Origin: Tribonema minus | Taxonomy: Eukaryota > Sar > Xanthophyceae > Tribonematales > Tribonemataceae | Assembly: GCA_017506865.1 (NCBI GenBank) | Contig: JAFCMP010000401.1 | Coordinates: 62,001-126,000 of the forward strand | Length of the DNA: 64,000 nt | Direction of reading: 5' to 3' | Shown here: in pieces, positions 11,919 to 53,300 of the stretch | Position numbering within the stretch: the first letter of the stretch is position 1 | How the letters are laid out: the number at the start of each line of letters is the position of its first letter | Program-made: the position numbers and the translations under genes | The notes under the pieces: model-generated | Told to the model about the DNA's origin: nothing | Database searches by the model: none | The model's input: the letters and a program-made list of their open reading frames with translations, nothing else

Positions 11919-12021
11919 TCGGGCCGCTATCCCTAGTGAGAGCACTCCAAGGTGCAAAAACCCTTCAAGTGCCGGCACAACAAACGCGGTGACCCTGGCT
12001 CCACCACAACGGCGAGAGGTT

Positions 12022-12440
12022 GCGGGTAGTGGCATAGCTTCGCAGGAAACCAGCAACAATTCCATCACAACGCCGAGCGCCGGCACCTAGTGATACAGCT
12101 TCGCGTCGAGATCAGCAACAATTCCATCACAACGCCGAGCGCCAGCACCTAGTGGTAAAGCTTCGCGTCGAGATCAGCAACAACGCCATCACAACGCCGA
12201 CCGCCGGCACCTAGTGGTAAAGCTTCGCATCGATTCCAGCAACAGTGCCATCACAACGCCGACCGCCGGCACCTAGTGGTAAAGCTTCGCATCGAGTCCA
12301 GCAACAGTGCCATCACAACGCCGACCGCCGGCACCTAGTGGTAAAGCTTCGCATCGAGTCCAGCAACAGTGCCATCACAACGCCGACCGCCGGCACCTAG
12401 TGGTAAAGCTTCGCATCGAGTCCAGCAACAGCGTCCACAC
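12022..12440 (+). repeat. Left subterminal tandem array, 62-bp unit, ~7 copies
   Basis: CACCTAGTG recurs at 12084, 12146, 12208, 12270, 12332 and 12394, exactly 62 bp apart. A degenerate first copy starts near 12022. Each unit contains CTTCGCATCGA and CAGCAAC blocks. The right end of the insertion has a related array of period 62-63 in the same orientation. There are no unique spacers, so this is not a CRISPR array. Confidence 0.92.
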
Positions 12441-12683
12441 TACAGCAACAGGTGAGAGACAGTAAATACTTTTGACGCACTTGCACTACAGTAGTCCGAT
12501 CACTTGCTTCGTCGTCAATTAATAGTTTTGGAACTATGCGGCTAGCAAACATATAAGTCGCCCATCTACAAGCAGTCTTTCATGGCAAGCAGTGTCCACA
12601 CGACGGAGGGAAAACAGCAGCAGAGCATGCATGCACATCGAGGAACATGAGGAGATATATACGGGCACACCACAACATTTGCA

Positions 12684-13798
12684 TTACTTGACAAATCTGA
12701 CAAGTCCGTGAAGCTCGTAATCATCATGTTGGCAGACCGTAGGCAGAGCATCCTGAGTCGGGTAAAAGAGGTACACAAGATTGATCGGGTCCGAGAATAT
12801 GACATCACCGTCTACTATCGATGTCAAGTACTGTTTGAGGTACTCCAGTCGTTCCTCCTGAGATATTGTAAACTTGTTTCCATCCCTGGTCACCAGCCCG
12901 TCAGGGTTGAACCGAATGAAGACCACAGGGGCTGTAACGCCCCCTTTGCGCAGCGCGTCGTCGATTTGTAGCATACGCGTCTGCTCACATCTGACCTCAT
13001 AGAAACGGTGAGCTTTCTCATCAATCTCCAGGATCACTACATACGCTGTGATGTTGCAAACGAACAGGTCAATTCTTGCATACGCCTTATCGGCGTTGAC
13101 GACACATTCATTGTATCGGATGTGGACCTCATCGTCCAGGTTGAAACTGTTCACCTGAAGATATTTCATGACAGCAAACTCCATTTTCTTCTGTCGCATC
13201 TGATTCTCCTTGACGTGAAATGACCTCATATGTCTGTCTCTGGTACTTGTGGCTGTAAAGGTCTTGTCGCAGTCGTTGACCAAACAAGAGTAAGGCCGCG
13301 CCGCCGTATGTGTTCGCTCGTGATTTACCATAGTTGACTTCTCTGTGCTTCGATATTCACATAAGTCGAAGCCACATGCAAATGCCTTGATTTCAGTATG
13401 CGTCAGCATGTGGCGCGGAGACCACCACTGGTCACAGAGGCGAAGTCGCATCGTTCTTCGCCACATTTGAAATCTCTCTGACCCGTGTGTATATACTTGA
13501 TGTGGTTGTTCATAACCCATCGGTTAACAAATGACTTGTGACAGATATTGCAGACAGTGTCTTTAACTTTGACGTTTTTGACTTTGCAACAGTTCCCTCT
13601 TTCGATGTGCTGCTTCAAATGGCTCTTCGTTGTGAACTTTCTGGAACAATGGTCGCACTTTGGATGTGCATCTAGACGGTGTTTAAGTAACTGATACTTC
13701 AAAGTAGACGTGAACATGCAATCTTTCTCCATGCACACATAGTCGTTGCATGCAGTTACAGATTGCTGGATCGTTTGGGCCGCAGGAGCTGGTGTCAT
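12684..13798 (-). pseudogene. C2H2 zinc-finger protein with nuclease-like C-terminus, one frameshift
   Basis: The frame from ATG 13798 encodes several C2H2-type fingers (CMEKDCMFTS, CDHCSRKF, CNICHKSF...HIKYIH, CGEERCDF). It stops prematurely at ~13403 after one extra base in a GCGCC run near 13412. The next frame continues the same finger (HMLTHTE) with two more (CGFDLCEY...HERTH, CLVNDCDKTF...HMRSFH). A ~150-aa domain with ILEIDEKAH, CEQTRMLQI and VVFIRFNPDG follows, ending in TAA at 12684. The E-x-DE-x-x-H / IRFNPD pattern resembles PD-(D/E)xK-type nuclease folds that I recall from zinc-finger proteins of large DNA viruses and algae. It lies divergently from the recombinase-like gene, with a 614-bp gap. 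It could be a recent pseudogene or an assembly indel. Confidence 0.65.
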
Positions 13799-14412
13799 GC
13801 TTTGACTGTGGTAAAGAAAAAAAAACAGCGAGAGTAAACACGTTCAGAACACAAGATGTTTTGAGCATGTATTGCACATGCTAACAATGCGGGTGCCATG
13901 CACATCTGTCTCTGTACGCTCGCAGACAACCGGAGGATCCAAGGCTGAGGGCGCGTCCGGAGACTGCACGGCACTGCGCAGACGCAACTCAGGTGCGTCA
14001 ACATATAGCCGTACACTTCACTATTACACTAGCCCGTGCGCGCGCCAGAATATGAACCAGTCCAAACAGGCGCAGCTGGCGCTAGCATTTGAACACATAC
14101 ATTAGCAATCCCAGCTGGTAACAGTGCCATGACTAGCCACGTCTCGAACAGCGACGGCGCGGACACTACAGCATCGGTAGGCGTGCGCTCAAACGCAATA
14201 TTTGTATCACTTAGGCTCTCATACCCGAGCTGCAAGCTGCATCATGGACTCCATCAATGCGGAACTTACTTTGTACAGGCGGCGCTTGCGTGGTAACAGC
14301 ACCTCACTCGCGCCACTACATGTGTCCTAGTTCCTCTTATACACAGCCAGCTTCCTGCCTTGTGCATATACTGACATAAGTTCCTGTATATATCTTGTGC
14401 TACACAGGCAAC
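13799..14412. promoter_or_regulatory. Divergent intergenic region between zinc-finger gene and recombinase-like gene
   Basis: The 614 bp separate two start codons pointing away from each other, so the promoters of both genes should be here. A poly-A tract (aaagaaaaaaaaac) lies at ~13814. No defined box can be assigned. Confidence 0.35.
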
Positions 14413-17400
14413 ATGGTGCGGAAGGATAAGGCATGGGATGTGTTCGGCCCCTTAGCGAAGGGCATGCAAGCCAAGAAGATGAGCCTCATCAGTCGCAATG
14501 GAAGCGATCTTCTGCGGGCCAAGGCCCTGAAAGCCGAAGCAGAGGCCAAATGGGAGGAACTACAAGTGGACCGCGGTCCCCAGCGAGAAGTCAACCTGAC
14601 GATCCCCATGATTGAGGAGCTTCTCCAACAGAACGTGAGTATCTGTTCTCGTACTCATATGATGCAAGCAAGCATACACATGCCTACATACACGGACGCA
14701 GATTACGCCGTATGTGAGAAGGCCGTGTAAGCTTCCATGTACGCTCTGTTGAAATCACGCCTTAGAGTTTGCCAACACTGCCCGCGAGCTGCCTCTGTTC
14801 CAGAAGTTGGGTCAGCCGCTGTGAAAAGTAGTTCTGGCAGTGCCGGATTCAATATCACAAAATGTTAAAGTATAAAGTAAACTTCAAATTATACTAATTT
14901 CTAGATGCACTACTATTAGTACACCCTTTAGGGTGAGTAGCCATGTAGGAGAGGCTTGAACCTCCAATACCCATCACTCACCCTACTATCTCGGCATGCT
15001 ATGACACAGTGCCAGGACAGCAATTGTGCTATTACGCATTTCACCATTATAGCAGTCACAAGAAGGGCACATTCAAAGCTATATTACCAATTTTACCCCG
15101 ATCCTTACTGATACCGACCCGTTGCACGCACAGGTAACGCTGGAACAGACTGTGACGCACAGCGCGCTCTTCATGGACGGCGACACCCAGGATCCGCGCC
15201 CGCTGTACAGCAGCAGCGGCCCCAGCGGCAGACCGCAGACTCGCCTACTGGACATGTCCACATCCGTCGACCCCGCCGCGCAGGGCATCACGGTCGGCAT
15301 GCGCCTCAGGGGCGGCGAGGTCGTCGTCGACACCTCCGGACTGACCACGGTCAAGGTTGCTGCAGCGTCATCTGCAGCAGCGGCTGCTGCTCTGGCGCGC
15401 GCAAACGGCGGCAGCTCTCCAGCCTCTCACGCGTCCAACGCTACGCGGAAGGCCACTGCCAGCTCATCGCCGGCTCGTGAGGCAACCTCGCGCAAAGCGT
15501 CGCTGCCACCGACGACACCGACGCCCCCGCCTACACCTGCTGCGGGCGCGCCTCCTCGTCAACCCCATGCTGCTCCACTCAACCTCAACCGTTACATCGC
15601 AGACCTGGACGCCATCGCAGCCGTCCTTGCGGAGAAGCCTACAGGGCTCATTTTGGACTACTGCCGCAAGTTCGAAAAGCAATGGATCAGGGGGGAGATC
15701 AAAATCACCGGCGACGTGGAGCAAATCGGGGGAGGCCGGCTTAGAAACGCATCCAAGAAACAGTGCGCTGTGGAGTTCAGCCCGCTGTACAAGAAGGACA
15801 ACCACGGCACATTCCAGCCGCTGTCCGATGATGAAGATCGTCGCAAGATCACCATCACGCTGGACCTCCAGCAGTTCCTGAAGGATCCACCTACGGATGC
15901 ATCATCACAGCATAAGCAATGGCTACTCTACAGCCAAATCTCCTCCGTCACTGCCGCCAGCAGCAGCAGCAGCTCCACCGCCAGCAGCAGCAGCAGCTCC
16001 GCCACCAACGCTGCCACCAGCGCCACCACCGCTCCAACCCCCGCCGACTCGCCTCCGCCAACAGCGTCGACAGCGAGCAGCAGCAGCAGCGCCAGCGGTG
16101 ACTCGCCTTCATCACCAGCATCTACAGCGAGCAGCAGCGCCAGCGGCGACTCGCCTCCGTCACCAGCGTCGACAGCGAGCAGCAGCGGCGGCCTCAGAGG
16201 TGCCTCCAGCAGCGGCAGCTGCGGCAGAGGTACTATCAGTGGGGGAGCAAAGGGGAAAGGCAAGAAGGTGACAAGGCGCGGTCCTCGCCAGGATCCGATT
16301 GCCAAGCTTGCCTCCATGGTGGAGGACGATCACAGCTTCTACGGCACGGAGGCACGAGATGACGGGGAGGAGGTGAAGCTGGTGGGGTTGACTTACGTCC
16401 TGCGCAATGCACTGGACGAGGCGGACGGGGGGGCGAGGCTTACGAAGGCGTGGCAGCACCTCCTGTACAACGCCGTGGCGCTCTGGCACGAGGGCATGCA
16501 GGTCTTCCACATGTAAGTCATGACGGCATGCACTGCTAATGGTAAAATGCATTGACGATATTCAGCTGGCTTATTTAAGCTACTCTGAATGTGAGCGTTG
16601 CATCATTTAGTATCTTTAATCTTTATTGACGCTCAAGCACCATATGCATTGCATCGCTCACACTGCTGAAGGCCAATATTTGTTGCTGCTGCAAGGCGAA
16701 GCGCACACAACCAGCTTGACAAATTGTCACCTTGTTACACCACTCACCACCAAACTTTGGCTGCCTGTTAGCTTAGCATCACTCCCCCTGCTGAAGGCCA
16801 ATACGTGTTGCTGCTGCAAGATTAAGCGCACACGACCAGCTTGACAAATTGTCACCTTGTCACACCACTCACCTCCAAACTGTGGCTGCCTGTCAGCTTA
16901 GCATCACTCACACTGCTGAAGGCCAATACGTGGTACTGCTGCAAGGTGAAGCGCACACGACCAGCTGGAGAAATTGTCACCTGGTCAGACCACTGACCAC
17001 CAAAATGTGGCATGCCTGTTATCTTTTCAGGAAGCTCCACAATCCCGATGCAAATGTGAAGCGCGTAGACCTCAGAGACTTCGGGAACCACAGCAGTGCG
17101 GCGGGTCCAGACGTCATCAGCAAAAAGGTGCGCACTGGGGGGATTGCGCAAGCAGCTCTCCGCCGCCTCAAGTGCGGCGAGCTGCTGTGGGCAGGCATGC
17201 CCCATCTCTATAACAACGACATTGTTCAGACATCGTACCTGGAGGCCTGCTGGCCCAAGTTCAACTGGGACATCTTCAACAGCATGGAGGCAATGACAAA
17301 CCCCGACGCCGCACTTCAATCCAGCCACAATGCCTCCTCCGACACGGTCAAGATCCTCTTCACTGCCACCAGCATCAACCGCATCCCTCACTGCAGCGCG

Positions 17401-20400
17401 GTGTTCATCCCTCTCTACCGGAGCGAGTGGGACATGGTTCGGCCTCGGCTCAACAGCCGGATGGTGCTCCCTGCAGCTAATCTACCACTCGTCATGGCCA
17501 AGCAGCCTCCCAACAAGGCAAGTCATGCCAAGAGAGGATGCCGTTTTTGTGTAAACAAATCAATTGTATGGCTGGTAGAGTAGGCAAACCAGCATCCATG
17601 GCCTCCTACAAGTGACTGACTATAATGCTCTACACGATATCGTCGAGGTTCACAGCCCGGGGGTCCCAGAAGCAACCCCTTGACCGCTGCCTTCCGCGAC
17701 GAAGGCGGGTGTGTATAATGCACACGGACCACCCCAAAACCTATTAGCCCCCTTACATCTTACCTGCGGTGCCCTAGTGTACGTAGCGACCAATCTGTTC
17801 AAAATGTCCTCAAAAAGGTCAGAGTGTTGGTGATAGGTTTCATTGTAGTTGAGGAGTAATGGGTTTTGGGCGTCAAGGAGGGGGGTCCCCTGCATGAGGA
17901 GCTGGGACCCCGGGGTTCACAGCATCATCGACTTCTTGCTGCTGCTGACTGTGTGTGCTGCTGTGTGGGCTGCTGGCTGCTTTTCCCAAGTCACTTGTTG
18001 ACTGTTTGACCGCATTGCTCAAGTAGGCACTTCCGGTCACCGATTCTCACATGTAATGTGCGTGTCGTTTCAGGTCGCCGAGCACCTGCCGTCCGCGCTG
18101 AAAGACCTCCTACGAGGCCCTTTCACGGACTCCGTCGTGCTCGCACAACTGGAGCACCTAGTCAAGGCGACGCAAGTGGGGCGGACAGGAGACAAAGAGA
18201 CCAACGGCTACAGGGCCTCCACAGTCAGCAATATGAACAGCCATGCCTGCCACATGATGGACACCGTGACCTTCCACGTCAGCGACGGCGACCACAGGCC
18301 GGAACTGTACCTGGAGCGACTCCGCAAAAGCTTCACAGCCTACCAGCTCCGCATTCGCAGCATAGAGACGGAGGAGCAAGCGGAGGCGCAGGCGTTCGGC
18401 AAGATTCAGCAGGACGGCCGGTCTCCAGACGCTCTCAAGTCGGCCGCGCTGTTCAGGACGATGTGGATCAATGTGGAGGGGGGGACATGGGAGGTGTTGC
18501 GCGAGTCCCTAATCAAGCACCTTGCAGACCGGGGGGCCCGGTGGGAGAGCATGATGGAGGAGTTCTATACATTGCTGGGTGGGGTCAGGACAGCTAGGGC
18601 GCATGGCGTCGAACACCTCGTCACGGAGACGGGGGAGCAGCTTGCTGGCGATCTGATCGAAGAGGGCTACACGACACACGACGCTGCATCGCTCGAGATG
18701 TATTTCAACATGAAACTGGCCTCCATCGTGTCACGGCGTAACCAAGACTTTTTGCTCAACAAGGCATCTCGGGTGTACGCCAAGTTAACGGACGATGGTG
18801 TATGGGTGCTCTTCGTGGTGAGTGTTTGCGCTCGCAGTTGCATTTGTGCACTTCATCGAATATGCTTGATGACGTCCGCAATTCAGATTATGGTCCAACA
18901 CGCTGAAATTGTTGGTCTTACTGGTCCAACACCGTGACGCTGAAATTATTGGTCTTACTGGTCCAACACGCTGAATTTATTGGTCTTAGTATTTCTTAGT
19001 ATGTAACTATGTAAGGCACTTGTACTGGTGCTGTGGTGCAGAGACCTTGAGTATGTTCAGCTTAACTTCACCTACGTGGTGTGCGATGGACTTGTTGACT
19101 ACTAGTATGTATCATCTCACCACTAGTGCTCGCGACCATATCAGCCAAGGTGCTACACTTGTGCGTAAAGACGCTTGCATTTGCACAGATTGCCGTGACT
19201 TCAAGTCAACATGTAAGAACCTCTCACTCCCTACCAGCGTCTGTAGGGTCTGCAACAATATGTGCTACAAAATGAAATCTATACAGTACAGTCTAGCTAA
19301 TTTTCCGATTGTTTATCACGAAAAAGTCGTGCCCAAATGGATGAACTCAGGAGGTGTAATATCAAAAGAACCACAGAAACGAGCATTAAAAAACCGGAAA
19401 ATGAGAGAGACAGTACAGTACTGTAACAGGTCCCTTTTGAAGCAAATACATAATCATGGGTGTTTATCGTCACCCTCCTCACTGTCGCATCTTGTTGGCG
19501 AAAGTATTGTACATTGTAGTTACCTAGTGATGTGCGTCATACCACATAAACCTCACTTGAAGTCACAATACAGTAAGGCAACACATAATGAAACACATGT
19601 TGCAATCCATGATGGGCTGTTCGACAGTACTTAATGTTGTAACCCTAAGCGTCTTTGCCTACGCTGTGTCGGTCGCAGTATATGGATCGCCCCATGGCCA
19701 AGAAGACGTCCCACATACGCGGCAGGGGGGAGGCAGGCCCGCTTCAGATCGCCATCCCTGTGCCAAAAGCTCTAGCCGATGTGCTCGTCGTCATGCTGTT
19801 CATCCTGCGGCAGCTTCGAGCCGTACTGCACAAGGTAGAGCCAGACGATCGGGTCTTAGGGCTCTCGGGGGCCAACGGCAAGCAGGTGGGGAAGAAGACC
19901 TTTACGGACGCGGTTGCTGAGATCGGTGCTTACCACCTCGGCGTACCCAGTCTTGGTGTGTACGTGTTCCGGCACGAAACCATCACCACGATCATGGACT
20001 TGTCTAGGTATCTGCGGTCACAAAACGAACACAAAGCCGCGGACACAGTTGAGCAAGATGGTGCCAGGCAGCTAGGCACATTTGTTGCTGCAATGCGGTT
20101 GGCATATGATAACAATGCGGACGCTGTGACCATGGCGCACGACTTTCGTGCGATGAAAGACGCAGCTGTCATAAGCCCCAGCCCTCAGCCCGCAGTAGAG
20201 GCCACAGCCTCCCCCGCCCCTGCTGTAGGAGAGCCCGTCTTCACAGTGCCTTCTCCCCCCACCCCTGTTGTAGGACCCCCCTTCACAGTGCCTTCTCCCC
20301 CCACCCCTGCTGTCGGAGAGCCCCTAGCCTCTTTCACAGTGCCTCCGCCCCCTTCAGCTGACTATCAGCAGCTAGACTACGATGCACGCGCACGGCTTCA

Positions 20401-20953
20401 TCAGTTGAGGTACGAGGCAGAATGCAAGCGACTGCAGCGGGAAGATGATGCGCACGCCAGGAAGGTACGGCTTGAGACAGAGGCCCTCGCGCTGTCGCTC
20501 AAGCGCAAGCCAGATACACATGAGGCCGATGAGTTCCGCACCAAACGCCCTTCACCTACTGTAGACATGCCCATCATGCAGCCTCAGTACAAGGGCATGT
20601 GGTGGCCTCCCCAGCCCCCGCAGCAGCAGCGGGCGCAGTCTCCGCAGCAGCAGTGGGCGCAGTCTCCGCAGCAGCAGCGGGCGCAGTCTCCACAGCAGCA
20701 GCGGGCGATTCATGCACCAGAGTCCCAGTACACAGGCATGCAGCAGTGGCCTCAGTGGCCTGAGCATCAGCAGTGGCCTCAGTGGCCTGCGCAGCAGCAG
20801 GTGCAGCAGCAGTTTCCATACATGCCTGTCATGCAGCGCGCTGCGTACACGGACGCACCAGCTGTGGCGCAGCAGTACCCATGTGTGGATGCTCAGGCAC
20901 AGCACACAGGCGATGACCTCATCTGGCCCCCAATGACATTTGGGCAGCCATAG
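14413..20953 (+). CDS. Five-exon gene, C-terminal tyrosine-recombinase-like region (1,368 aa predicted)
   Basis: Exons: 14413-14634, 15134-16512, 17031-17517, 18074-18817 and 19679-20953. All phases agree (0, 2, 0, 0). Donors are GTGAGT, GTAAGT, GCAAGT (a GC-AG intron) and GTGAGT, and every acceptor is AG. The start sits in AACATGG. Exon 2 has long Ser/Ala/Pro low complexity after a globular part. Exons 4-5 look like a tyrosine-recombinase fold: an Arg-rich helix (SIVSRRNQDFLLNK), a beta segment ending at an exon junction, IPVPKALADVL, GVYVFRHETITT (Arg ~1042) and a candidate nucleophile in MRLAYDN (Tyr ~1087). The tail has four QQQRAQSP-type repeats and ends in TAG. The usual His before the second catalytic Arg is Val. 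If this is a recombinase it is the best candidate for integrating the 40-kb insert. The gene model is firm; the function is tentative. Confidence 0.6.
14800..14995 (+). repeat. Diverged single copy of the 236-bp satellite in intron 1
   Basis: Intron 1 contains gggtcagccgctgtgaaaag, ttctggcagtgccggatt, and then ccatgtagg...cttgaacctcc...caccctac. These are the same blocks, in the same order, as the satellite monomers at 41.4-44.0 kb. The GTAGG...CCTAC inverted repeat is retained with one mismatch. Confidence 0.8.
16655..17030 (+). repeat. Three ~124-bp tandem repeats in intron 2
   Basis: The phrase gctgaaggccaata recurs near 16664, 16791 and 16915, each followed by a gctgctgcaag block, gcgcacac and aaattgtcacc. 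The third copy merges into the splice acceptor of exon 3 at 17030, so repeat expansion built most of this intron. Confidence 0.85.
17656..17914. mobile_element. hAT-like MITE, 259 bp, in intron 3
   Basis: The 8-bp direct repeat GTTCACAG lies at 17648-17655 and 17915-17922. Inside it are terminal inverted repeats CCCGGGGGTCCCAG (left) and CTGGGACCCCGGG (right), which differ by one G. An 8-bp duplication with short inverted repeats and no coding capacity fits a non-autonomous hAT-type element. The short minus-strand ORF that spans it is incidental. Confidence 0.8.
18885..18995 (+). repeat. Minisatellite in intron 4, 3 copies
   Basis: ggtcttactggtccaacac with cgctgaaatt recurs three times at a spacing of about 33-39 bp just after the exon 4 donor. 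Confidence 0.8.
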
Positions 20954-21213
20954 GGTCTCGAGGGCGCATGCAGGGGGCTGGCAAGGGGCAATTAGGTGTT
21001 GTGTGTCAGTTGGTTTAATATACCCGAGGCTGAAGCCTAACTAGAATGCTGTGTGCAGGTCCACTCATAATACAGCGTTTGATTTTGCATTTGTCTTGCA
21101 ATGCTGCTGCTGAGCGTTGCCGATACATGTGTTGACCATGTATTCTGCGTTCTGTGTTAAATGCGGGCATTGTTTTTTGTTTTGAACTCAGTATTCAATG
21201 AACTTGTCAAGTC
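20954..21213. other. Short intergenic region, no feature seen
   Basis: 260 bp lie between the TAG of the recombinase-like gene and the next ATG. It probably carries the polyadenylation region. No motif is convincing. Confidence 0.3.
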
Positions 21214-22661
21214 ATGCATCATGAATGCGAAGTCAACGGATGCACCAAGCAGGCCGTGCGTCGCAGCGGCAGCACTGAGTTCTGTGTCATGCACGAGGGC
21301 GGCGATCGCTGCCAGCACGTCGACGAAGGAGGCAACTCTTGCAATGCATGTGCTAAAATCAGTAACAGCGGAAACGGTGTGGTTCATATGTGCATCAAGC
21401 ATGGCGGTGGCAACCGCTGCCAGCATGTAGACGAAGAAGGTAATTCTTGCAGGGCATCTGCTTTAACCAGCAGGACCGGATCCGGTGCCGTTGGTATGTG
21501 CATCAAGCATGGCGGTGGTGATCGCTGCCAGCACGTCGACGAAGGAGGCAATTCTTGCAGGGCATCTGCTGTGACCAGCAAGAGCGAATCTGGTGCCGTT
21601 GGTATGTGCTTCAAGCATGGCGGCGGCGATCGCTGCCAGCACACATTGACAATGGACACATCTCTTGCAAAGCATCCGTGCAGAGTAGCAAGAGTGGATC
21701 CGGTACCGCTGGTATGTGCATCAAGCATGGTGGCGGCGATCGCTGCCACCATACTGACGAAGGAGGCAACTCTTGCAGGTCATCTGCTGTTGCCAGTAAG
21801 ATGGGATCCGGCGCAATCGGCATGTGTGTGAAGCACGGCGGTGGCAACCGCTGCCAGCATGTTGATGAAGAAGACAACTCTTGCAGAGCGTCTGCTGTAA
21901 CCAGCAAGAGCGGATCCGGCTTGGTCGGTATGAGCAGAAAGCACGGTGGCGGCGATCGTTGCCAGCACGTCGACGAAGATGGCATTTATTGTGGGACATC
22001 TGCTGAACACAGCAAGACGGGTACTGGTGTCACTGGCATGTGCAGGACGCACGGTGGTGGCAATCGCTGCCAGATCCACGGATGCTGCAGAGGCGAAAGT
22101 GTTGAGGGGCATGTGCACGCACGCCATGCGGTGCCTCGTGCGCGACCAGACCGACGAGGACGCGAGAAAGGTGTTGATGCGCCGCTTCGGCTTCAAGAAG
22201 GATCTGGTCATGCGAGCGGAGCACGCCTTCTACCACAGGGTCACGCAGCTGGTGCCCGAGCTTCATCTGTTCGAGAGTGTGTACTATGACTCCGTCACGA
22301 CGAAAATTCTCGGCAAGCGGAAGAGCGCGTCCGACAAGGGGCCAGATGTCCTGCACATGCTGGCCACTCACATCGGGGGCGATGAGCGCATGTTCGCCAT
22401 TCACTGCGAGTACGACGAGACACCGCAGCACGAGGACTCTGATGATCGATGTGTCAACATCTACGACTACACCGGTTACTCGGGGGGAGCCGGGACGTGT
22501 ATCTGATCAGGACGCAGGGGCACCATTACACGGACAGAGCCGTTTGCATACGTCGCACGATCAATAAGCACTTCACGTACTACTTCATGACCGATGAGGG
22601 CGAGAGAGTCGCTCAGGAGACGGCGGGTGAGATCAGACGCGCCATCAACTTGTCACAGTGA
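21214..22661 (+). pseudogene. Cys/His-repeat protein with nuclease-like C-terminus, three frameshifts
   Basis: From ATG 21214 the protein begins CEVNGCTKQAV...FCVMH (C-x4-C...C-x2-H). It then repeats a ~33-residue unit, HGGGDRCQHVDEGGNSC...GMCIK, about eight times. This resembles the Cys/His repeats of EsV-1-7 and 'HGGG.RC' proteins in algae, oomycetes and their viruses, probably zinc-binding. The frame shifts by 2 nt at ~21643 (an extra CA in cagcacacatt), again near 22075-22085, and again at ~22485 in a run of six G. The C-terminal region reads FAIHCEYDETPQHEDSDDRC and then VYLIRTQGHHY. It echoes the E-x-DE...H / IR.N pattern of the zinc-finger protein at 12684-13798. It is either decayed or carries assembly indels at simple repeats. 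Confidence 0.6.
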
Positions 22662-22851: not shown

Positions 22852-23370
22852 TCAAGACGTCACGCGCGCAAACACTGCATCAAATAGATCCCTATCCTTG
22901 GTGACGTCGTAGCACTTTACCTTGCGCACTTCACCGTTCACGTGCTTATCAGTTGTGAGCTGGTTGGTGTGGCCGTATTTTATTTTGTACTCAAGGTGCA
23001 TTGCCTTCCCAAAATTGGAAGTGAACGCCGTTTTCTGATAGGCCATGTCTGCCTTGTATCTCAAGAGCCATCCAGACACTGTGCAGTATTCGGGATCATT
23101 GACCTCCTGCACGGCCAGTGGCAGAGCCTCGGCGACAATCGGGCTCGTCAGTGAGTCAACAGCTGGTGAGGTGCTAGATGCTATGTTCTTGAGCTGATTA
23201 ATCATGGACATATGTAAATCTGGGTCGAGTATTTGCTGCTCCTTCAGTGAATTCATGAAGTAGGATGCGTTGTCAAACTGTCGCTTGTGCCAATCAGCCT
23301 CATCCATTGATGTCAACTTAAGCAAACAAACTGGCCTCATCGCCCCTTCGCGGGCTCTTCCAAGAAGCAT
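22852..23370 (-). CDS. Unknown ORF with virus-like DNA-binding tail, downstream of Fanzor
   Basis: A 172-aa frame runs from ATG 23370 to TGA 22852, starting only 33 bp after the Fanzor stop on the same strand. The C-terminal ~60 residues contain FGKAMHLEYKIKYGHTNQL, HVNGEVRKVKCY and KDRDLFDAVF. From memory this resembles a 'G-K-x-x-x-Y...YG..P...V.G..r.V..Y...DrdL' tail common on BRO/KilA-type proteins of large DNA viruses and mobile elements. The N-terminal half is unrecognised. Such tight spacing is unusual in a eukaryotic genome and suggests co-transcription or read-through in a compact element. It could also be an exon of a longer gene. Confidence 0.45.
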   Translation of the reverse strand: MLLGRAREGAMRPVCLLKLTSMDEADWHKRQFDNASYFMNSLKEQQILDPDLHMSMINQLKNIASSTSPAVDSLTSPIVAEALPLAVQEVNDPEYCTVSGWLLRYKADMAYQKTAFTSNFGKAMHLEYKIKYGHTNQLTTDKHVNGEVRKVKCYDVTKDRDLFDAVFARVTS

Positions 23371-23403
23371 TTTGACCCATCAGGAATGGTGTTGTGCATC
23401 TCA

Positions 23404-25698
23404 CTACTCATCGTCGGATGACTCGTCGTCTGTGTCGTCTGCCGCATCCCCTCCCCTCCTCCGCGTAAGCCTTGAAAAGCGAGCGAAGAAAGTCTTCATG
23501 ATACCAGATACCCCACCGTCATCTCGATCGAACGTAGTGAGGCTGCAAAGGGTATTTGAACAAACCCTTACACGTCTGCCGCTCTCATCTTGGTTCAGAT
23601 TTTTCAACTCCTCCCCACACTCCGGGCCAGGGCAGTATTTACTGGACCCCGCCTCATTTCCTATCACAACACTGCACTCACAGGCACATGCCCTGACAAT
23701 TTTCTTCCTCGGCACGCTGATGTGCCCCTTGGTTGCCTTGAAGGATCCGTTGCCGAATACTATGAGCCTCTTGCCCGCTCCCTGGAAACCGGCGAATATC
23801 TTCTTCTTGATGTGCTCCACCTGAGACTGTATGGCGCGAAAGCGCTGGAAAGCCTTTACCTTTCGCGTCTTCCGCAGCTTCTCCGCCCAGTAACCATCCT
23901 CCACACGCCTCCAGGCGATGCAGTAGCGCACCAGCTCGGAGACGTCTGAAGTCCTCTTGCGATATTTCCACGCGGTCCGGAGCGCGGCGGCGTACTTCGG
24001 CTGTTGCGAACGGGCCACCGCCTCCTGATGCGCTGTTTTCTTTCGCCCGGACAGCTTCTTGACCTCCTCCTCTGTGACGACCACGTAGGTGAAAGCAGGT
24101 GCATGTTGGACGGCAGCAATAAGATCCCAGTCGGCGCCGTACGCGAAGATGCCGTTGACTGGCTTGAAGATGCCGGGGTCTATACCTCCTAGGATGGTGT
24201 CGTCCAGGACCGCCCTGTCTTCGCCAAACACGACGCCATAGTCGTTATAGACCCCTACCCCCCGCTCCACGATGTCCATCAGCGGCTCGTTCTTAGTCCT
24301 TAGCTTGTATCCGGCTTCATGCAGATACCTCAGTCCCGGCGCTCCCGGGTTAGTTCCCTGTGAGGTCATGAGGCACAGCTTGATCTGATGTCCGTCTGTC
24401 TCGAATGTGGGCGCCACCATCCACGGGCATTTTGTAACGTCGGGGTTGCCGATAGCATCCATCATACTCCTTTCGCTGCTCCCTCTCGTTGAGCACCGAA
24501 GACACCTGATGTTCGCCTTTTTGTTGTAAGGAGACAGGAATGACCTGTACCCCCACGGTCCCATCTGGACGTCGAGCGAAGGGAAGAGGCGCTTCATCGT
24601 TGTCTTGTCTATGCGGATGAAAACGGCCCGTGGGTTTGCGTAAGGGAGGGGGGCGACTATCTTGGGAGGTGCCTTTCGCCCGAACTTGGTGTTGATGAAG
24701 AGGTTTCTGTCCTTCTTGCCCTCCTTCCCGGGATGCATAATGTTCGCCACCCTGATGACCATCTCGAATTCCCTCCGAGGCTTGTCGATATAATCCCGCT
24801 GTAGATTGAACCAGTGACGTATCTGCTCCGTGACTCCCTCGACCTCCCTGGCACTCTCGCAGAACGCGATGATGTCATGCCTGTAGGAAGTGTTGTCAAA
24901 TCCCAGCCCGATGAGGGTCGCCACCACGTCCGCAGCGGAAGAGAGTCCGTGCGCCATGAAAGCTATGAGCTTCTGTATCCTGCCCGAGAACACCTTGGCC
25001 GCCATGTCGCCGTGGTGAGGGAGAATCGCAGTCCTGAATACCCAGCTCGCGATGGCTTTGATGCGTTTCAGGTAGTGCTCTTTCATCCTAGTCATGGTAG
25101 CTGTCCACAGTTTCTTGGCCTGATCATTCTTGATCTCCTTGACGTGGAGGGGGGCCGGAAAAGAGCCAATGCCTGTTAGCGCTGTAAACTGGCTGAATTG
25201 CTCTGCGAGGGGGTTCGATGAGGCCGGGTAGCACAGGGCGTCGAAACAGCTCGTGAAGAAGGCAGCATTGATTGTGGGCACGACCTGTCCTGGCGCATTC
25301 AGGCTCTGGGTGATGACAAACTGGCTGAACAGAGAAGCGTGAACCCTCAGTCTGGAGAAGTAGGACGTCAGCTCCGACATTTTATCCAGTATGTCTGCAT
25401 AATCGGAGTCCCTGACGTCTACCAACACGGCTCTGAGGCCTATTGTCACCACTCTGTGGCGAACATCGAGCTCCTTGCCCCGCAGGCGTTCAAAGGCTCG
25501 CAGAAACAACTCCTCCTGGTCCTGTGATTCGCTGTATAGCTCTACATTGTCGTCCCCAGTGTCCTTCTGGACCACCCGCCTGCCGAAGGCGTGCAGTAGG
25601 CGGTTGCGACAGTTATCTACAGTGGTGTCATTCTTCTTCTGCTTACGCGCTGTTGCTTTCTCGTCCCTACTGAGAAGTTTGCGCTTTTCCTTTGGCAT
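23404..25698 (-). CDS. Fanzor (eukaryotic TnpB-like RNA-guided DNA nuclease)
   Basis: The frame is open from 25776. I prefer the ATG at 25698 because it opens with a Lys/Arg-rich stretch (MPKEKRKLLSRDEK, ARKQKK) that looks like a nuclear localisation signal; this gives 764 aa. RuvC-I Asp is in GGIDPGIF (~D507). RuvC-II is in GNEAGSSKYC (~E682), continuous with the [TS][TS]xx-C4 zinc finger (C-x4-C ... C-x4-C). RuvC-III Asp is in FDRDD (~D726). The D-to-SS spacing (~178) falls within the published Fanzor pattern D-X(125,275)-[TS][TS]-zinc-RD. All catalytic residues are present, so it is probably active. Fanzors use a guide RNA usually encoded next to the gene. Stops TAG-TGA are tandem, and an acidic DDTDDESSDDE tail precedes them. 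An IS4-type transposase lies just upstream. Confidence 0.9.
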   Translation of the reverse strand: MPKEKRKLLSRDEKATARKQKKNDTTVDNCRNRLLHAFGRRVVQKDTGDDNVELYSESQDQEELFLRAFERLRGKELDVRHRVVTIGLRAVLVDVRDSDYADILDKMSELTSYFSRLRVHASLFSQFVITQSLNAPGQVVPTINAAFFTSCFDALCYPASSNPLAEQFSQFTALTGIGSFPAPLHVKEIKNDQAKKLWTATMTRMKEHYLKRIKAIASWVFRTAILPHHGDMAAKVFSGRIQKLIAFMAHGLSSAADVVATLIGLGFDNTSYRHDIIAFCESAREVEGVTEQIRHWFNLQRDYIDKPRREFEMVIRVANIMHPGKEGKKDRNLFINTKFGRKAPPKIVAPLPYANPRAVFIRIDKTTMKRLFPSLDVQMGPWGYRSFLSPYNKKANIRCLRCSTRGSSERSMMDAIGNPDVTKCPWMVAPTFETDGHQIKLCLMTSQGTNPGAPGLRYLHEAGYKLRTKNEPLMDIVERGVGVYNDYGVVFGEDRAVLDDTILGGIDPGIFKPVNGIFAYGADWDLIAAVQHAPAFTYVVVTEEEVKKLSGRKKTAHQEAVARSQQPKYAAALRTAWKYRKRTSDVSELVRYCIAWRRVEDGYWAEKLRKTRKVKAFQRFRAIQSQVEHIKKKIFAGFQGAGKRLIVFGNGSFKATKGHISVPRKKIVRACACECSVVIGNEAGSSKYCPGPECGEELKNLNQDESGRRVRVCSNTLCSLTTFDRDDGGVSGIMKTFFARFSRLTRRRGGDAADDTDDESSDDE

Positions 25699-25790
25699 GC
25701 GCAGAGGTTGTGATGGTCGTGGTACTGCCCTTGTATCGATATAATAAACTGCGCACGCCAAAAAGATTCGGGTCATGAATCTCGATGAGG

Positions 25791-39899: not shown

Positions 39900-40583
39900 A
39901 TGGATAGGGAGGACAGGAGCGCCAAAAAAGTCAAGGTCGAAGAGCATGGGGGCCCCGCTGCTGGTCCTGTTTTAGCAGCAGCACCTGCTGCGCCTGCTGC
40001 TGGAGACATGGCTGGAGAGGGTGCCGCAATCGATGAAGGTAAACAGCCCTGTAAACGTCGTCTATGGATGTCTTGTCTACGTTCATTGACTAAGCACTTG
40101 AGTACTATGATGCTTTGTACATTCAAACAACCGACAACAATCAGAGGTGGAGGCAAACCCCTAGCACTGCGGTATCTCGTCAACCTTCCAGGTGACCGGA
40201 GGCTCTATGACGCCTTCATAGACGACTCTCATAAGCCTGTGAAGGTAGCCCTCGCGCTGGAGGCGGTCATCAGCTGCTATGGCAAGGTGAAGACAGCAGC
40301 CACCGAATTCAAGACTGCTGTGAACCTCGGGGATTATGCATCAGCGAGGGCAAGGCACGGAGAAGTGTTGGGGCTCGCGACGGTGTTACGCCACCACGCG
40401 CAAGCTCTGCCTGATGTCTGGTCGGACCTGTTGATGGGGCTACAGAGAGCCTGTTTCAACAACTTGGACGGTGTCAATGAGCTTGTTGTCTGCATGACTG
40501 CTACGATCGTGGAAAGCATGTCTCAGTCACACGACGAGATGCGCATATGCGCCCGCGTCGCGAGGCAGCTCACAAAGATGTAG
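39900..40583 (+). CDS. Unknown protein with N-terminal NLS-like patch
   Basis: A 227-aa frame starts MDREDRSAKKVKVEEH (basic KKVKV) and an Ala-rich segment. Good splice signals (AAG/GTAAAC at 40039 and TTCCAG at 40191) define a possible 153-bp intron that is a multiple of three and open, so both the spliced 176-aa form and the unspliced form stay in frame. The C-terminal part is helical (VKVALALEAVISCYGKVKTA, LRHHAQALPDVWSDLL) with no family that I recognise. The stop is TAG. Confidence 0.5.
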   Translation: MDREDRSAKKVKVEEHGGPAAGPVLAAAPAAPAAGDMAGEGAAIDEGKQPCKRRLWMSCLRSLTKHLSTMMLCTFKQPTTIRGGGKPLALRYLVNLPGDRRLYDAFIDDSHKPVKVALALEAVISCYGKVKTAATEFKTAVNLGDYASARARHGEVLGLATVLRHHAQALPDVWSDLLMGLQRACFNNLDGVNELVVCMTATIVESMSQSHDEMRICARVARQLTKM

Positions 40584-41376: not shown

Positions 41377-44060
41377 AAACTGTTTAAGTGAATAGTAAAC
41401 TTAAAATACATTCACACAATTCATACCCTTTAGGGTGAGTAACCATGTAGGGGAGCCTTGAAGGTCCGATAGTCACCACTCACCCTACCGGTATATGATG
41501 CTACATAATATTTGCGTGATTTACGAAAATCTGCGTTGGGTCCGCCGCTCTGAAAGGTATCTCTGGCAGTACCGGATTACAAAGTCACAAACTTCAATAC
41601 GAAAATCTGCTAAGGGTCGTACCTGTCCGATTTTAGGTCAGCCGCTCTGAAAAGTATTTCTGGCAGTACCGGATTGCAAAGTACAGACTGTTGAAGTAAG
41701 AAGTAAACTTCAAATTATACTAACTTTCAAGATACATACCCTTCAGGGTCAGTAACCATGTAGGGGACCCTTAAACCTCCGATAGTCACCACTCGCCCTA
41801 CCGGTACATGATGCTACATAATATTTGCGTGATTTACGAAAATCTGCTAAGGGTCGTACCTGTCCGATTTTGGGTCAGCCGCTCTGAAAAGTATTTCTGG
41901 CAGTATCGGATTCCAAAGTACAGACTGTTGAAGTAAGAAGTAAACTTCAAATTATACTATTTTCAAGATACATACCCTTTAGGGTCAGTAACCATGTAGG
42001 GGAGCCTTGAACCTCCGATAGTCACCACTCACCCTACCGGTACATGATGCTACATAATATTTGCGTGATTTACGAAAATCTGCTAAGGGTCGTACCTGTC
42101 CGATTTTGGGTCAGCCGCTCTGAAAAGTATTTCTGGCAGTATCGGATTCCAAAGTACAGACTGTTGAAGTAAGAAGTAAACTTCAAATTATACTATTTTC
42201 AAGATACATACCCTTTAGGGTCAGTAACCATGTAGGGGAGCCTTGAACCTCCGATAGTCACCACTCACCCTACCGGTACATGATGCTACATAATATTTGC
42301 GTGATTTACGAAAATCTGCTAAGGGTCGTACCTGTCCGATTTTGGGTCAGCCGCTCTGAAAAGTATTTCTGGCAGTACCGGATTCCAAAGTACAGACTGT
42401 TGAAGTAAGAAGTAAACTTCAAATTATACTATTTTCAAGATACATACCCTTTAGGGTCAGTACCCATGTAGGGGACCCTTGAACCTCCGATACTCACCAC
42501 TCACCCTACCGGTACATGATGCTACATACTATTTGCGTGATTTACGAAAATCTGCTAAGGGTTGTACCTGTCCGATTTTTGGGTCAGCCGCTCTGAAAAG
42601 TATTTCTGGCAGTACCGGGTTGCAAAATACATACTGTTGAGGTAAGAAGTAAACTTCAAATTGTACTATTTTCAAGATACATACCCTTTAAGGTCAGTAA
42701 CCATGTAGGGGAGCCTTGAACGTCCGATAGTCACCACTCACCCTACCGGTACATGATGCTACATAATATTTGCGTGATTTACGAAAATCTGCTAAGGGTC
42801 GTACCTGTCCGATTTTGGGTCCGCCGCGCTGAAAAGATACATACCCTTTAGGGTCAGTAACCATGTAGGGGAGCCTTGAACCTCCGATAGTCACCACTCA
42901 CCCTACCGGTATATGATGCTACATAATATTTGCGTGATTTACGAAAATCTGCTAAGGGTCGTACCTGTCTGATTTTGGGTCAGCCGCTCTGAAAAGTATT
43001 TCTGGCAGTACCGGATTGCAAAGTACAGACTGTTGAAGTAAGAAGTAAACTTCAAATTATACTAACTTTCAAGATACATACCCTTCAGGGTCAGTAACCA
43101 TGTAGGGGACCCTTAAACCTCCGATAGTCACCACTCGCCCTACCGGTACATGATGCTACATAATATTTGCGTGATTTACGAAAATCTGCTAAGGGTCGTA
43201 CCTGTCCGATTTTGGGTCAGCCGCTCTGAAAAGTATTTCTGGCAGTAACGGATTGCAAAGTACAGACTGTTGGAAGTAAGTAGTAAACTTCAAATTATAC
43301 TAATTTTCAAGATACATACCCTTTAGGGTCAGTAACCATGTAGGGGACCCTTAAACCTCCGATAGTCACCACTCGCCCTACCGGTACATGATGCTACATA
43401 ATATTTGCGTGATTTACGAAAATCTGCTAAGGGTCGTACCTGTCCGATTTTGGGTCAGCCGCTCTGAAAAGTATTTCTGGCAGTACCGGATTGCAAAGTA
43501 CAGACTGTTGAAGTAAGAAGTAAACTTCAAATTATACTATTTTCAAGATACATACCCTTTAGGGTCAGTAACCATGTAGGGGCGCCTTGAACCTCCGATA
43601 GTCATCACTCACCCTACCGGTCTATGATGCTACATAATATTTGCGTGGTTTACGAAAATCTGCTAAGGGTCGTACCTGTCCGATTTTGGGTCCGCCGCGC
43701 TGAAAAGATACATACCCTTTAGGGTCAGTAACCATGTAGGGGAGCCTTGAACCTCCGATAGTCACCACTCACCCTACCGGTATATGATGCTACATAATAT
43801 TTGCGTGGTTTACGAAAATCTGCTAAGGGTCGTACCTGTCCGATTTTGGGTCAGCCGCTCAGAAAAGTATTTCTGGCAGTACCGGATTGCAAATCACAGA
43901 CTGTTGAAGTAAGAAGTAAACTTCAAATTGTACTATTTTCAAGATACATACCCTTTAGGGTCAGTAACCGTGTAGGGAGCCTTGAACCTCCGATAGTCAC
44001 CACTCACCCTATCGGTACATGATGCTACATAATATTACGAAAATCTGCTAGGGTCGTACT
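41366..44060 (+). repeat. Satellite array, 236-bp monomer, ~12 copies
   Basis: Using 'accatgtagggg' as anchor, copies lie at 41442, 41754, 41990, 42226, 42462, 42700, 42859, 43096, 43334, 43570 and 43730, plus a variant at 43966. Spacing is mostly 236-238 bp, with two intervals of 159-160 bp where the same 77-bp piece is missing (higher-order structure). Each monomer contains GTAGGG...CCCTAC around an inner GAG-GCTTGAAC-CTC hairpin, and an ACCCTTTAGGGT block. Some monomers are nearly identical (41.9-42.4 kb), showing recent expansion. Confidence 0.95.
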
Positions 44061-44617
44061 TTTTATTACTAGGGTCGTACTTATGATCTTGTATTTATAG
44101 CAGCCCCAAGGTGGGCTTGATGCGTTGGATAAGATTGCTAAAAACTAAAATCGGACGGGCCCTTAGAGCCCTGCGTTGCAGGCTTGTACTAGACTCATGG
44201 GGGGCAGACACAGCGGCACCCAGTCTGAGCCACACCTATCATAGCCGATGTCTCCATCTCTTGAGCGAAAACGCCGGAGGACCGCGGTTATGCCTCTAGT
44301 ATACATTTGGGCCAGAGGCGCCCGGTCCTCGATTCCTTGCCTAGCACGCCGCTGACGTGCCTGGCCGAGGTTCTCTTTCTTGCGTGTTCAAGCAAACGAT
44401 CTACAGTGTGCCCTGATGCTATCCGCATCCCCATGTTCCAATATCCCCTGCTGCTGCCCAAAGCCGTATCCTCACCACACGCGACTCCGCAGCTCCTGCT
44501 CACAGTCAGAGCCAGCATCTCCCATCCCCTTGCTGCTGCCTGATGCACCCTCGCCACCATCAGCGCCACCGCGAGCGCTGCCGCACCTCTTTTTTTCGGT
44601 GCTAACGAGCAAGTGTA
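44061..44617. other. No gene recognised
   Basis: Open frames on both strands (44288-44677 minus, 44380-44670 plus) overlap each other and run into the LINE fragment. No domain or splice structure supports either. Confidence 0.3.
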
Positions 44618-44628
44618 CAGGATTGTAC

Positions 44629-44743
44629 TTTTTATTAATTCTCGCTCAGGGCGCGAAAAAGCCCAGATGATTGGCATCTAGCTGTAAGGAATCTGCATGT
44701 CGTATGACAGTCTGAAAGTGTCGCAACGACAACGACTCAAACG
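44629..44743 (-). mobile_element. 115-bp 5'-truncated LINE copy with 11-bp target duplication
   Basis: The segment is almost identical to the reverse complement of the LINE end at 55567-55677, including the stop codon and 3' UTR. It is flanked by CAGGATTGTAC at 44618-44628 and 44744-44754. The target is a satellite-related sequence that continues as gggtcagccgctctgaaaag at 44768. This is the classic outcome of target-primed reverse transcription. Confidence 0.88.
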
Positions 44744-44754
44744 CAGGATTGTAC

Positions 44755-49654: not shown

Positions 49655-49954
49655 GGGGACAGGCGGTGCTGCACAGCAGATAAATTGAGGTACAAGTACA
49701 CGATTTGTGTTTGTATCTTGCAAGTGTGCATTGTACTGCTCTTAATTCTTGCTGCTTGTGTGCAGCACACTTTGCATTGAATGACATGACTTGCATGACC
49801 AGTAACAGTTTGCCGTTCCATGCTCAGCATTTGGCACATGCACAGTGTTGAACACCCTAGTCAAATGCGATGTGTTTGTAAGTGGCACGCAAACTTCCGC
49901 CCTCATTTCTCAATTAGCAAACAACGTACGCCAAGGTGCATGACAATCTGCATA

Positions 49955-50125
49955 TACCTGCACATGTACCAGCATATACCTGCACACGTACCTGCATATA
50001 CCTGCACGCGTACCTGCGACAACCTGTAAGCGTACCTGCAAGGACATGTACACGTACCTGCGACAACCTGTAAGCGTACCTGCGACAACCTGTAAGCGTA
50101 CCTGCAAGGACATGTAAACGTACCT
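49955..50125 (+). repeat. ACCTGC-containing ~19-bp minisatellite
   Basis: ACCTGC recurs about every 18-20 bp on the plus strand, alternating with acctgcgacaacctgtaagc and acctgcaaggacatgta units. It lies at the inner edge of the right subterminal region. Confidence 0.85.
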
Positions 50126-50464
50126 GCGATCGCTCGGCTAGCCTGCCCTGATGATGGCCGAGTGCTGCTCCTATCGTGATATAATATACAGTCACAACGT
50201 TGCCTGTCATTAGCGTTTGAAGCATTTGAAGTAGTCTCACCTGCACGTGTTCACCGTGTCCTGCAACAGCGGTCACTGCCCTCGTAATCTCTCGCCCTGC
50301 AATCTACGCCAGCCTGCTCCTCCCAGTGAATTTTCGCCGTCGTCCTCTCTACCTGCAAGCAACGTACGCCAAGCTGCATGACAACCTGCACACGTACCTG
50401 CAAATACCTGCACCATACCTGCGGCAATCTGTATCTTACATGCGATAACTGCAGCAACCTGCAC

Positions 50465-51430
50465 ATCTCCCAGTGAAATGCCCTCGTTCAGAGAGCCTGC
50501 TCGCGTGCTGCAGCAACCTGCCCGCAAACTTGCGGCAACCTGCGCGCTCCTAGTGATGATTCGCCTCAATAACCGCGACCTGCATGCAACCTAGCAGCAG
50601 CCTGCGCGCTCCTAGTGAAGGTTTCGCCTCGATAACCGTAACTTGCCGACAAGCTTGCAGCAACCTGCGCGCTCCTAGTGAAGTTTTCGCCTCGATAACC
50701 GCGACCTGCAGGCAAGCTCGTATCAACCTGCGCGCTCCTCGTGAAGTTTTCGCCTCGATAACCGTAACTTGCCGACAAGCTTGCAGCAACTTGAGCGCTC
50801 CTAGTGAAGGTATCGCCTCGATAACCGTTACCTGCAGGCCAGCTCGCAGCGACTTGCGCGCTCCTAGTGAAGTTTTCGCCTCGATAACCGTAACTTGCCG
50901 ACAAGATTGCGCGCTCCTAGTGAAGTTTTCACCTCGATAACTGCAACCCGCCAGCAAGCGTGCGGCAACCTGCGCGCTCCTAGTGATTATTCGCCTCGAT
51001 AACCGCTACCTGCAGGCAAGCTTGCAGCAACCTGCGCGCTCCCAGTGAAGTTTTCGCCTCGATAACCGCAACCTACCGGCAACCTGCAGCAACCTGATTT
51101 GAAGTACCTCACATAGTAAGTCTCGCAAGTCTCACCTTCTTTAGCAGCGGTTGTCCTATCCTGCAACAGCGGTCGGCGCCCGTGATCTCTCGTCCTCCTC
51201 TAGCCAACCTCACCAACCCCACGTCGCTGACCTGCGCGCTCATTGTAAACTCGCCCTCGTCTGGCATAAGGAAAATATATAACCTGACACCGGGGGAATA
51301 TACATCACCGGGGAAATACCCCTGCAATGGTTGTTCGCCCAGTCAGCCCGTACCTGCAGTGTACCTGCGCCAGCCTGCGCCTCCCTAGTGAAATTTCACC
51401 CTGCTCAGCCTCTACCTGCTCACTACCTGC
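50465..51430 (+). repeat. Right subterminal tandem array, 62-63-bp unit, ~10 copies
   Basis: CTCCTAGTG (or a close variant) recurs at 50547, 50609, 50672, 50735, 50798, 50861, 50914, 50977 and 51039, mostly 62-63 bp apart, with outliers at ~50467 and ~51387. Each unit has TTTTCGCCTCGATAACCG and CAACCTGC. The CCTAGTG...TTCGC.TCGA...CAAC order and the period match the left array (12022-12440) in the same orientation. Confidence 0.9.
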
Positions 51431-51685
51431 AAGCAGTCATCGCAGGTAGCAACAGGTACGCCTACCTGCAGCTCACGTCGGTTGAAGTGCAGAAACTAGC
51501 CGGGGTATAATGACCTGCGTCAACATGTCCTAACAAGTACGGGCCAATCAGAAAGCGATTTTGCCACCCCCACCAATGAACGGTTCGTCTTTATTCGAGG
51601 GTCACCAATGACGTGCCTGCCTCTTCATCCCAACAGGTTGCCTGCACCTGCAGGGTGCCTGTAAAGGCCCCTAGTTATATGCCCT

Positions 51686-53296: not shown

Positions 53297-53300
53297 AAAC

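Follow-up and report, generated by a model that had tools for sequence, protein, structure and literature searches.

A probable mobile element of Starship-like appearance inserted in a young Ty3/gypsy element of the yellow-green alga Tribonema minus

How does a segment of some 40 kb come to lie within the pol gene of a Ty3/gypsy retroelement whose two long terminal repeats (LTRs) are identical? The question is raised by a stretch of 64,000 nucleotides, here called the window, which covers positions 62001–126000 of contig C401 (956,327 bp; the contig to which protein record JKP88DRAFT_263974 is tied) in the 158-Mb, 554-contig assembly of the xanthophyte alga Tribonema minus. An initial annotation of the window had compared the segment to the Starships of fungi and to integrated viruses and had placed it in an alga, as its host indeed is. 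We consider it probable that the segment is a mobile element whose ends also occur elsewhere in the genome, and that it entered the young gypsy pol gene at a GC dinucleotide, likely as a circle and by means of its own recombinase-like protein. Fungi are known to harbour giant cargo elements that a tyrosine recombinase moves; a search of the open-access literature, which leaves out most subscription papers, gave no description of such an element in an alga other than integrated viruses. Positions without a contig name are those of the window (Table 1).

Insertion site, ends and sister copies

The LTRs of the host element agree throughout and are both bordered by the target duplication AAAC, just as the initial annotation had them. 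Among other LTRs in the genome, the closest also rounds to 100% identity; other full-length ones are mostly at 96–99%, some lower. The pol frame is open from position 5833 through the left junction and is in the same phase beyond the right one (51675–52511); the reported interruption of pol and its in-phase resumption hold, whereas the junctions move from 11918 and 51686 to 11914/11915 and 51682. Six gypsy copies picked from LTR pairs of the same genome (L009–L014) all cross the site without an insert (...GCGTACACGC|CCTGCG...), and are the uninterrupted copies that the annotation had proposed to look for. The empty site holds a single GC, and the interrupted one has GC at 11914–11915 and again at 51681–51682: a short direct repeat at a precise insertion site, as in Starships. 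Past the site the open frame is 276 codons long here and in five of the six copies, and 310 in the sixth; one copy alone (L013) keeps a single frame over the site, of 2,585 codons, the others being open for 725–1,113 codons. The insertion point comes some 20 codons after the rve domain (residues 1790–1887 of the open reading frame (ORF) starting at 6193), which puts it within the integrase gene, close to the catalytic core on its C-terminal side. The order of events first proposed is supported: the gypsy element inserted recently, and the 39.8-kb segment entered it later, in one event.

The host pol also contains a C5 cytosine DNA methylase domain (10084–10572; PF00145, E 9.6e-15) between RNase H and integrase. 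Capture of C5 methylases by retroelements has been reported for dinoflagellates and charophytes (PMC5890265); the present case is a xanthophyte.

The ends of the segment recur. Its first 135 bases match C401:481852, C92:218320 and C182:79143, all on the minus strand, and its last 123 bases match C401:363626 and C92:141916, which, counting the window copy, gives four places for the left end and three for the right. In each case the match extends to the identical terminal base, with unrelated sequence beyond it, the outcome that the annotation had suggested seeking. The ends apparently pair into two sister elements, C401:363626–481852 (118,227 bp, about 250 kb from the window copy) and C92:141916–218320 (76,405 bp), a pairing that we infer. 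A left module of about 9 kb is common to the window and C401 copies (mostly 87–93% identity by DNA alignment), with parts also common to C92; the right module is shared over about 3.7 kb, in pieces, with C401 and over 0.45 kb with C92. Between these modules the interiors differ, in C92 and in the part of the C401 sister that was read (all but C401:368–420 kb), so that cargo varies as it does among Starships. When the flanks of the C92 sister are joined, they align straight over the junction at three other C92 places (query 666–931 at 81%, 822–982 at 74% and 825–1164 at 69%), and the joined C401 flanks are collinear on both sides with C5, the blocks being separated by 163 bases in the query and 167 in the genome. 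At the level of alignment blocks, these matches (67–81% identity) look as uninterrupted related sites would. Together, the uninterrupted gypsy sites, the GC at both junctions, the recurring ends with different flanks and the differing sisters point to a mobile unit.

Two observations concern the sisters themselves. The 118-kb sister holds a second recombinase-like domain (C401:456917–457531, L018), 52% identical to that of the window, which suggests nested or merged elements. In C92:154000–200000 (L023–L027), long frames (1,851 and 1,204 amino acids) look retrotransposon-like by eye, and the 76-kb sister may be old and enlarged by later insertions.

All three elements begin with GCAC and finish with ATGC. 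Their joined ends read GGCCCCTAGT-TATATGC-ACTTCGGGCC in the window element, GGCCCTTAGT-TAGATGC-ACTATGGGCC in the C401 sister and GGCCCGTAGT-GATATGC-ACTTGGGGCC in the C92 sister; a circle form of the window element would be expected to contain GGCCCCTAGTTATATGCACTTCGGGCC. In one fixed geometry, the inverted arms of about 10 bp match at 8, 9 and 8 of 10 positions in the three elements, which are homologous and so do not amount to three independent tests. With this geometry, 92 of 200,000 random 10-mer pairs from the element reach eight matches; when the geometry is left free, that score is reached by 767 of 20,000 random junctions, and a single element alone would be weak evidence. The 7-bp spacer terminates in the GC common to element and target, and its other five bases are kept at the right end only, which fits integration of a circle; a symmetrical terminal-repeat transposon would look different. 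The joined ends thus appear to have the layout of a tyrosine-recombinase core site, for which they are our candidate.

Just inside both ends lie arrays that carry one motif in the same orientation. The motif derived from them, CCTAGTGN{4,7}TTCGCNTCGA, has 10 matches, every one in the two arrays, against 0.00 expected. The sequence CCTAGTG is found seven times in the first 600 bp of the window element, eight times in the last 1,200 bp and three times in the intervening 38 kb, with none on the opposite strand; the C401 sister has 20 copies in its last 2,074 bp. Between 11700 and 52000 there are no inverted repeats of at least 30 bases (exact seed 14), and the window has no tRNA genes.

The recombinase-like gene and a proposed mechanism

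Toward the left end of the element lies a multi-exon gene that likely encodes a tyrosine recombinase, to judge from its motifs, its position and the att-like ends. Its exons were mapped, over 14404–20950, from P0001, a protein of 1,264 amino acids that the T. minus annotation gives for the C401 copy. That annotation ends the third exon (the one before 18074) earlier than the exon set used here. The introns flanking 18074–18817 have GC-AG borders before and GT-AG borders after it, both kept in C401. The gene is not at the very edge: it begins about 2.5 kb in, with the opposite-strand zinc-finger gene outside it, and extends 2.5–9 kb from the left end in the window copy, 3–9 kb in C401 and 12–25 kb in C92.

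The recombinase-like domain has an arginine at index 232, an alanine at +3, a lysine at +24, a Y-x-x-R and then a threonine with a tyrosine nine residues on. The lysine, the tyrosine and arginine of Y-x-x-R and the last tyrosine are invariant in four copies down to 46% alike. Residues of the same kinds (R, A, K, YxxR, Y) occur in the captain of the Starship Sanctuary (R260, A263, K308, Y424, R427 and Y458; PMC12506042). Ratios of nonsynonymous to synonymous substitution (dN/dS) against C401, given without a test of significance, are about 0.23–0.50 (0.45 for 15053–16513, 0.23 for 18074–18817 and 0.47 for 19679–20950). Over its catalytic portion the last exon is 98.9% identical to C401, the preceding intron 92.0%. 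Genome-wide, 52 places match the domain, many of them weakly or in part. Searches for related proteins turned up none outside Tribonema and no hit other than P0001 itself, one of them being limited to the 7,996 candidates with the most words in common; a scan of viral contigs with the domain alignment found no relative.

Several results weigh against a mobile element that moves by this protein. The third His/Trp position is a threonine here. The spacings of the pattern are not those of the Sanctuary captain, with 24 residues from R to K against 48, and 45 from R to Y against 31 (PMC12506042). Shuffled sequences match the loose form of the pattern in 762 of 20,000 cases and a strict form, chosen afterwards, in 31 of 20,000. 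Phage_integrase, DUF3435 and DUF3504 gave no match in Pfam even at E 10, nor did NCBIfam, PHROGs or PDB sequences; for the Starship captain family DUF3435, the search covered Pfam-A with the exons at E ≤1 and the spliced domain at E ≤10, the presence of that model in the library not being separately checked. Alignment with hhalign to a recombinase-like ORF on C182 gave nothing, and AlphaFold, run on the domain without relatives, returned no usable fold (mean predicted local distance difference test, pLDDT, 39.4). The C92 copy of the gene has stops in its aligned frames. If the geometry is not fixed, C92 has its best dyad at a shifted position, and the CCTAGTG array is missing at the left end of C401 (none in the first 600 bp) and reduced to a single copy at each end of C92. 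Finally, the circle form is neither observed nor observable in the data used. As the residue pattern alone is only moderately unusual and support from libraries, structures and folds is lacking, we treat the recombinase identity as likely rather than established.

A C182 ORF (689 amino acids, C182:73599–75665, L030:3599–5665) was considered as the element's recombinase and set aside as a different gene, having by eye an HxxR box and a retroelement look. By eye it resembles DIRS-type recombinases; it lies about 3.5 kb from the C182 left-end copy and is the genome's best match to PF00589 (E 0.0073, below cut-off). Genome-wide, Phage_integrase has 13 matches, none over the cut-off.

The element likely moves by the tyrosine-recombinase-like enzyme that it encodes, as fungal Starships are thought to. 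In the mechanism that we propose, this protein would bind the two inverted arms of about 10 bp (GGCCCNNAGT / ACTNNGGGCC) around the spacer TATATGC at the joined ends, possibly assisted by the CCTAGTG arrays, and would excise the element as a circle. The GC of the spacer would then recombine with a target GC, leaving the remaining five spacer bases at the right end. What lies between the two end modules would be exchangeable cargo, part of which probably came from a host locus and from DNA associated with giant viruses.

Known systems and rival explanations

Like the Starships of Pezizomycotina, which span tens to hundreds of kb, the element has a recombinase-like gene toward one end, short identical junction bases, exchangeable cargo and a nested passenger transposon. 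Unlike them it has no DUF3435 match, a stramenopile alga as host, a GC target, dyad ends and a gene that starts some 2.5 kb in from the left end. By membership it does not count as a Starship, because it lacks a DUF3435 match and its host is not a fungus; the initial comparison of style stands for gene position, junction bases and variable cargo, the recombinase-like protein itself matching no family in the libraries searched. The best reading is that of a giant, Starship-like element which carries cargo in an alga, is intertwined with giant viruses and works like a Starship or an integrating phaeovirus. Cryptons are far smaller than the present element, which moreover carries cargo and has no DUF3504 match. 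Like it, they are DNA elements of eukaryotes, and a tyrosine recombinase is responsible for their movement (PMC3212892), that of the present element being putative.

Giant-virus DNA is present in the T. minus genome: the major capsid protein of nucleocytoplasmic large DNA viruses (NCLDVs; PF04451) has matches at 10 places, on C21, C40, C90, C112, C144, C179, C223, C485 and C541. The most serious rival, which we nevertheless regard as unlikely, is a shortened or degenerate endogenous giant virus (a xanthovirus, from the sister group of phaeoviruses) that integrated at GC by a viral tyrosine recombinase and lost the rest of its genome. Phaeoviruses, as Ectocarpus endogenous viral elements (EVEs) and FsV-158, share with the segment a two-base junction identity (CC-CC in Ectocarpus, GC-GC in FsV-158), an inverted repeat at the joined ends and a recombinase gene, putative in the segment, near one end, and an IS4 transposon with an 8-nt duplication and Fanzor is restricted in Ectocarpus to integrated phaeoviruses (PMC13236599); the nested transposon of the insert is likewise of IS4 type, has an exact 8-bp duplication and contains a Fanzor-like ORF. 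In the T. minus genome, the IS4/Fanzor matches nearest to capsid genes are 42–64 kb away on C90 and C179, with others on contigs without a listed capsid match, and repeats of the 236-bp family found in the insert lie between 99.9 and 301.9 kb on C21, the nearest listed one 4.8 kb from the capsid gene at 306,666. Further features that fit a viral origin are FNIP repeats in the insert and, in the C401 sister, matches to PAS-histidine kinase, RING and SET.

Against this, C401, C92, C101 and C182 have no capsid match, and no viral core family was found in 21 frames of the insert, in about 26 of the 49 listed frames of C401:420001–481852 or in the one of 56 listed C92 frames that was scanned. Phaeovirus EVEs measure 288–407 kb, against 40 kb here, and their arms are AT-rich, those of the element GC-rich (PMC13236599). 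Identical LTRs leave little time for a loss of some 300 kb; the arriving unit was probably about 40 kb, and since the gypsy LTRs show no divergence, a shortened virus would probably have shrunk before arrival. C21 is not among the matches of the recombinase-like domain, and no genome match reaches the Phage_integrase cut-off, although phaeovirus-like recombinases have been reported in Tribonema, Heterococcus and Chlorellidium (PMC13236599). A whole giant virus is excluded for the insert by its size and the missing capsid match. Scans of viral contigs with the zinc-finger ORF, the IS4 transposase and the Fanzor-like ORF found no relatives. A 627-amino-acid frame of the C401 sister had one weak relative (L039, 24% identity) in the viral scan; the overlapping L039 frame matches a PHROGs phage virion protein, and the hit was given no weight.

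A giant DDE transposon with a 2-bp target duplication, for example a KDZ or EnSpm element of more than 30 kb as in Ectocarpus, is improbable. The left end (G|CACTT or G|CACTA) and a TAGT near the right junction are faintly CACTA-like by the terminus rule of that group. The right ends, however, read ...TATATGC, ...TAGATGC and ...GATATGC, with no CACTA inverted repeats at both exact ends, and in all three elements the right inverted arm lies 5–7 bp inside the junction, the extra bases not being target sequence here; the ends are therefore not symmetrical terminal repeats. Giant KDZ, EnSpm and Sola-1 elements do exist in a brown alga, a related lineage, and are likewise large, with accessory genes and nested transposons (PMC12477816), but their ends differ and no matching transposase was found in the element, whose scanned frames contain no DDE family save the nested IS4 transposase, with ends and an 8-bp duplication of its own.

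That an assembly chimera or a DNA-repair patch put unrelated sequence into a gypsy copy is the most improbable reading of all: the gypsy copies are long and alike (94–99% in long blocks), misjoins are possible in principle, and LTR identity alone would not exclude one, because the closest other LTR also rounds to 100%, but AAAC on both outer sides, identical LTRs and junctions that coincide to the base with termini at other loci argue against it.

With the mobile element as the preferred reading, a fresh, precisely bounded insertion, its empty site, sisters with paired ends and a candidate core site make a directly testable system; boundaries and attachment sites of integrations in Xanthophyceae are still to be defined, according to the authors of PMC13236599. 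Its cargo probably includes genes acquired from the alga and from giant viruses, and the element would then be a route for exchange of algal genes and giant-virus DNA. We advance more tentatively, as an idea that may well prove wrong, that yellow-green algae have a Starship-like class of their own, driven by a recombinase and from 40 to over 100 kb long, which inserts at GC, keeps two conserved end modules, swaps interiors, picks up host genes and trades DNA (IS4/Fanzor, repeat arrays, FNIP) with endogenous giant viruses, in which it may travel from cell to cell.

Cargo and nested transposon

Table 1 Features of the window, with their positions and basis
Feature	Position	Strand	Basis or remark
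Gypsy target duplication AAAC	3500–3503 (left), 53297–53300 (right)
5' LTR of host Ty3/gypsy	3504–3926	+	423/423 bases same as 3' LTR
Gypsy pol, left part: reverse transcriptase, RNase H, C5 DNA methylase, integrase H2C2, rve	6193–11913	+	Pfam
Inserted mobile element (probable), GC at each end, one GC being the target's	11914–51682		Empty sites and recurring ends
Left arm ACTTCGGGCC of predicted core site	11916–11925	+
Left subterminal array, 62-bp unit	12027–12431	+	Motif CCTAGTG...TTCGCNTCGA
C2H2 zinc-finger gene, two overlapping frames	12687–13843	-	Possible nuclease-like C-terminal part (by eye)
Tyrosine-recombinase-like gene	14404–20953	+	Exon-by-exon mapping of P0001; catalytic-type pattern
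Its supported exons	14404 onward, ~15086–16513, ~17020–17517, 18074–18817, 19679–20953	+
Frames containing cysteine/histidine repeat units, followed by a second frame	21202–22503	+	C92 homology; no Pfam match above cut-off
Nested IS4-type transposon	23305–27036		Terminal inverted repeats; 8-bp duplication GCCTCATC each side
Fanzor-like ORF, 790 amino acids	23404–25776	-	Motif (by eye: RuvC-type residues, zinc finger) and position only
IS4-type DDE transposase	25933–26973	-	PF01609, E 4.3e-20
Cargo collinear with C101:81642–93348	27210–37480		DNA alignment; pieces at ~69–88% identity
Cargo ORF	29526–30203	-	93% amino acid identity to C101 across 160 residues; no Pfam match above cut-off
NAD(P)-binding, NmrA/epimerase-like gene	30703–31833	+	PF13460, E 2.7e-13
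FNIP-repeat frame	37982–39043	-	PF05725, E 4.6e-11
Array of ~236-bp repeats	41410–44000	+	Common to C401, C92, C21, C514
Dispersed genome repeat, ~0.5–0.65 kb	44100–44744	+	At least 40 places, 94–98%, covering at least the first 511 bases
Leucine-rich-repeat ORF, 718 amino acids	45028–47184	-	PF23598, E 2.3e-41
Right subterminal array, 63-bp unit	50513–51096	+	Motif CCTAGTG...TTCGCNTCGA, orientation as in left array
Right arm GGCCCCTAGT and 7-bp spacer TATATGC	51666–51682	+
Gypsy pol, right part	51683–52514	+	Phase as left part; uninterrupted gypsy copies
3' LTR of host Ty3/gypsy	52874–53296	+	Identical to 5' LTR

A block of cargo of about 10 kb is collinear with C101. Because C101 has neither element ends nor a recombinase domain among the matches listed, it looks like a host locus and the source of this cargo, which was probably copied from there into the element. 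The NmrA-like gene has dN/dS of 0.23 and 0.30 against two C101 copies, and the cargo ORF preceding it 0.19 against C101. Nearer the left end, the zinc-finger gene has a dN/dS of 0.17 against its C92 copy; its Pfam matches are PF00096 (13406–13843, E 2.4e-8) and, under the cut-off, PF13465 (12687–13523, E 3.9e-7).

The nested transposon is intact at both ends and is of IS4 type by its transposase, its inverted repeats and its exact 8-bp duplication; the transposase scores 102 bits (E 2.8e-29) against NF033592, below the cut-off of 115. The Fanzor-like ORF had no library match above cut-off and no PDB match above chance, and the frame next to the FNIP frame (39207–39947) has no Pfam match. The 236-bp repeat family is not confined to its array, being found in the window element also at 14807–14987.

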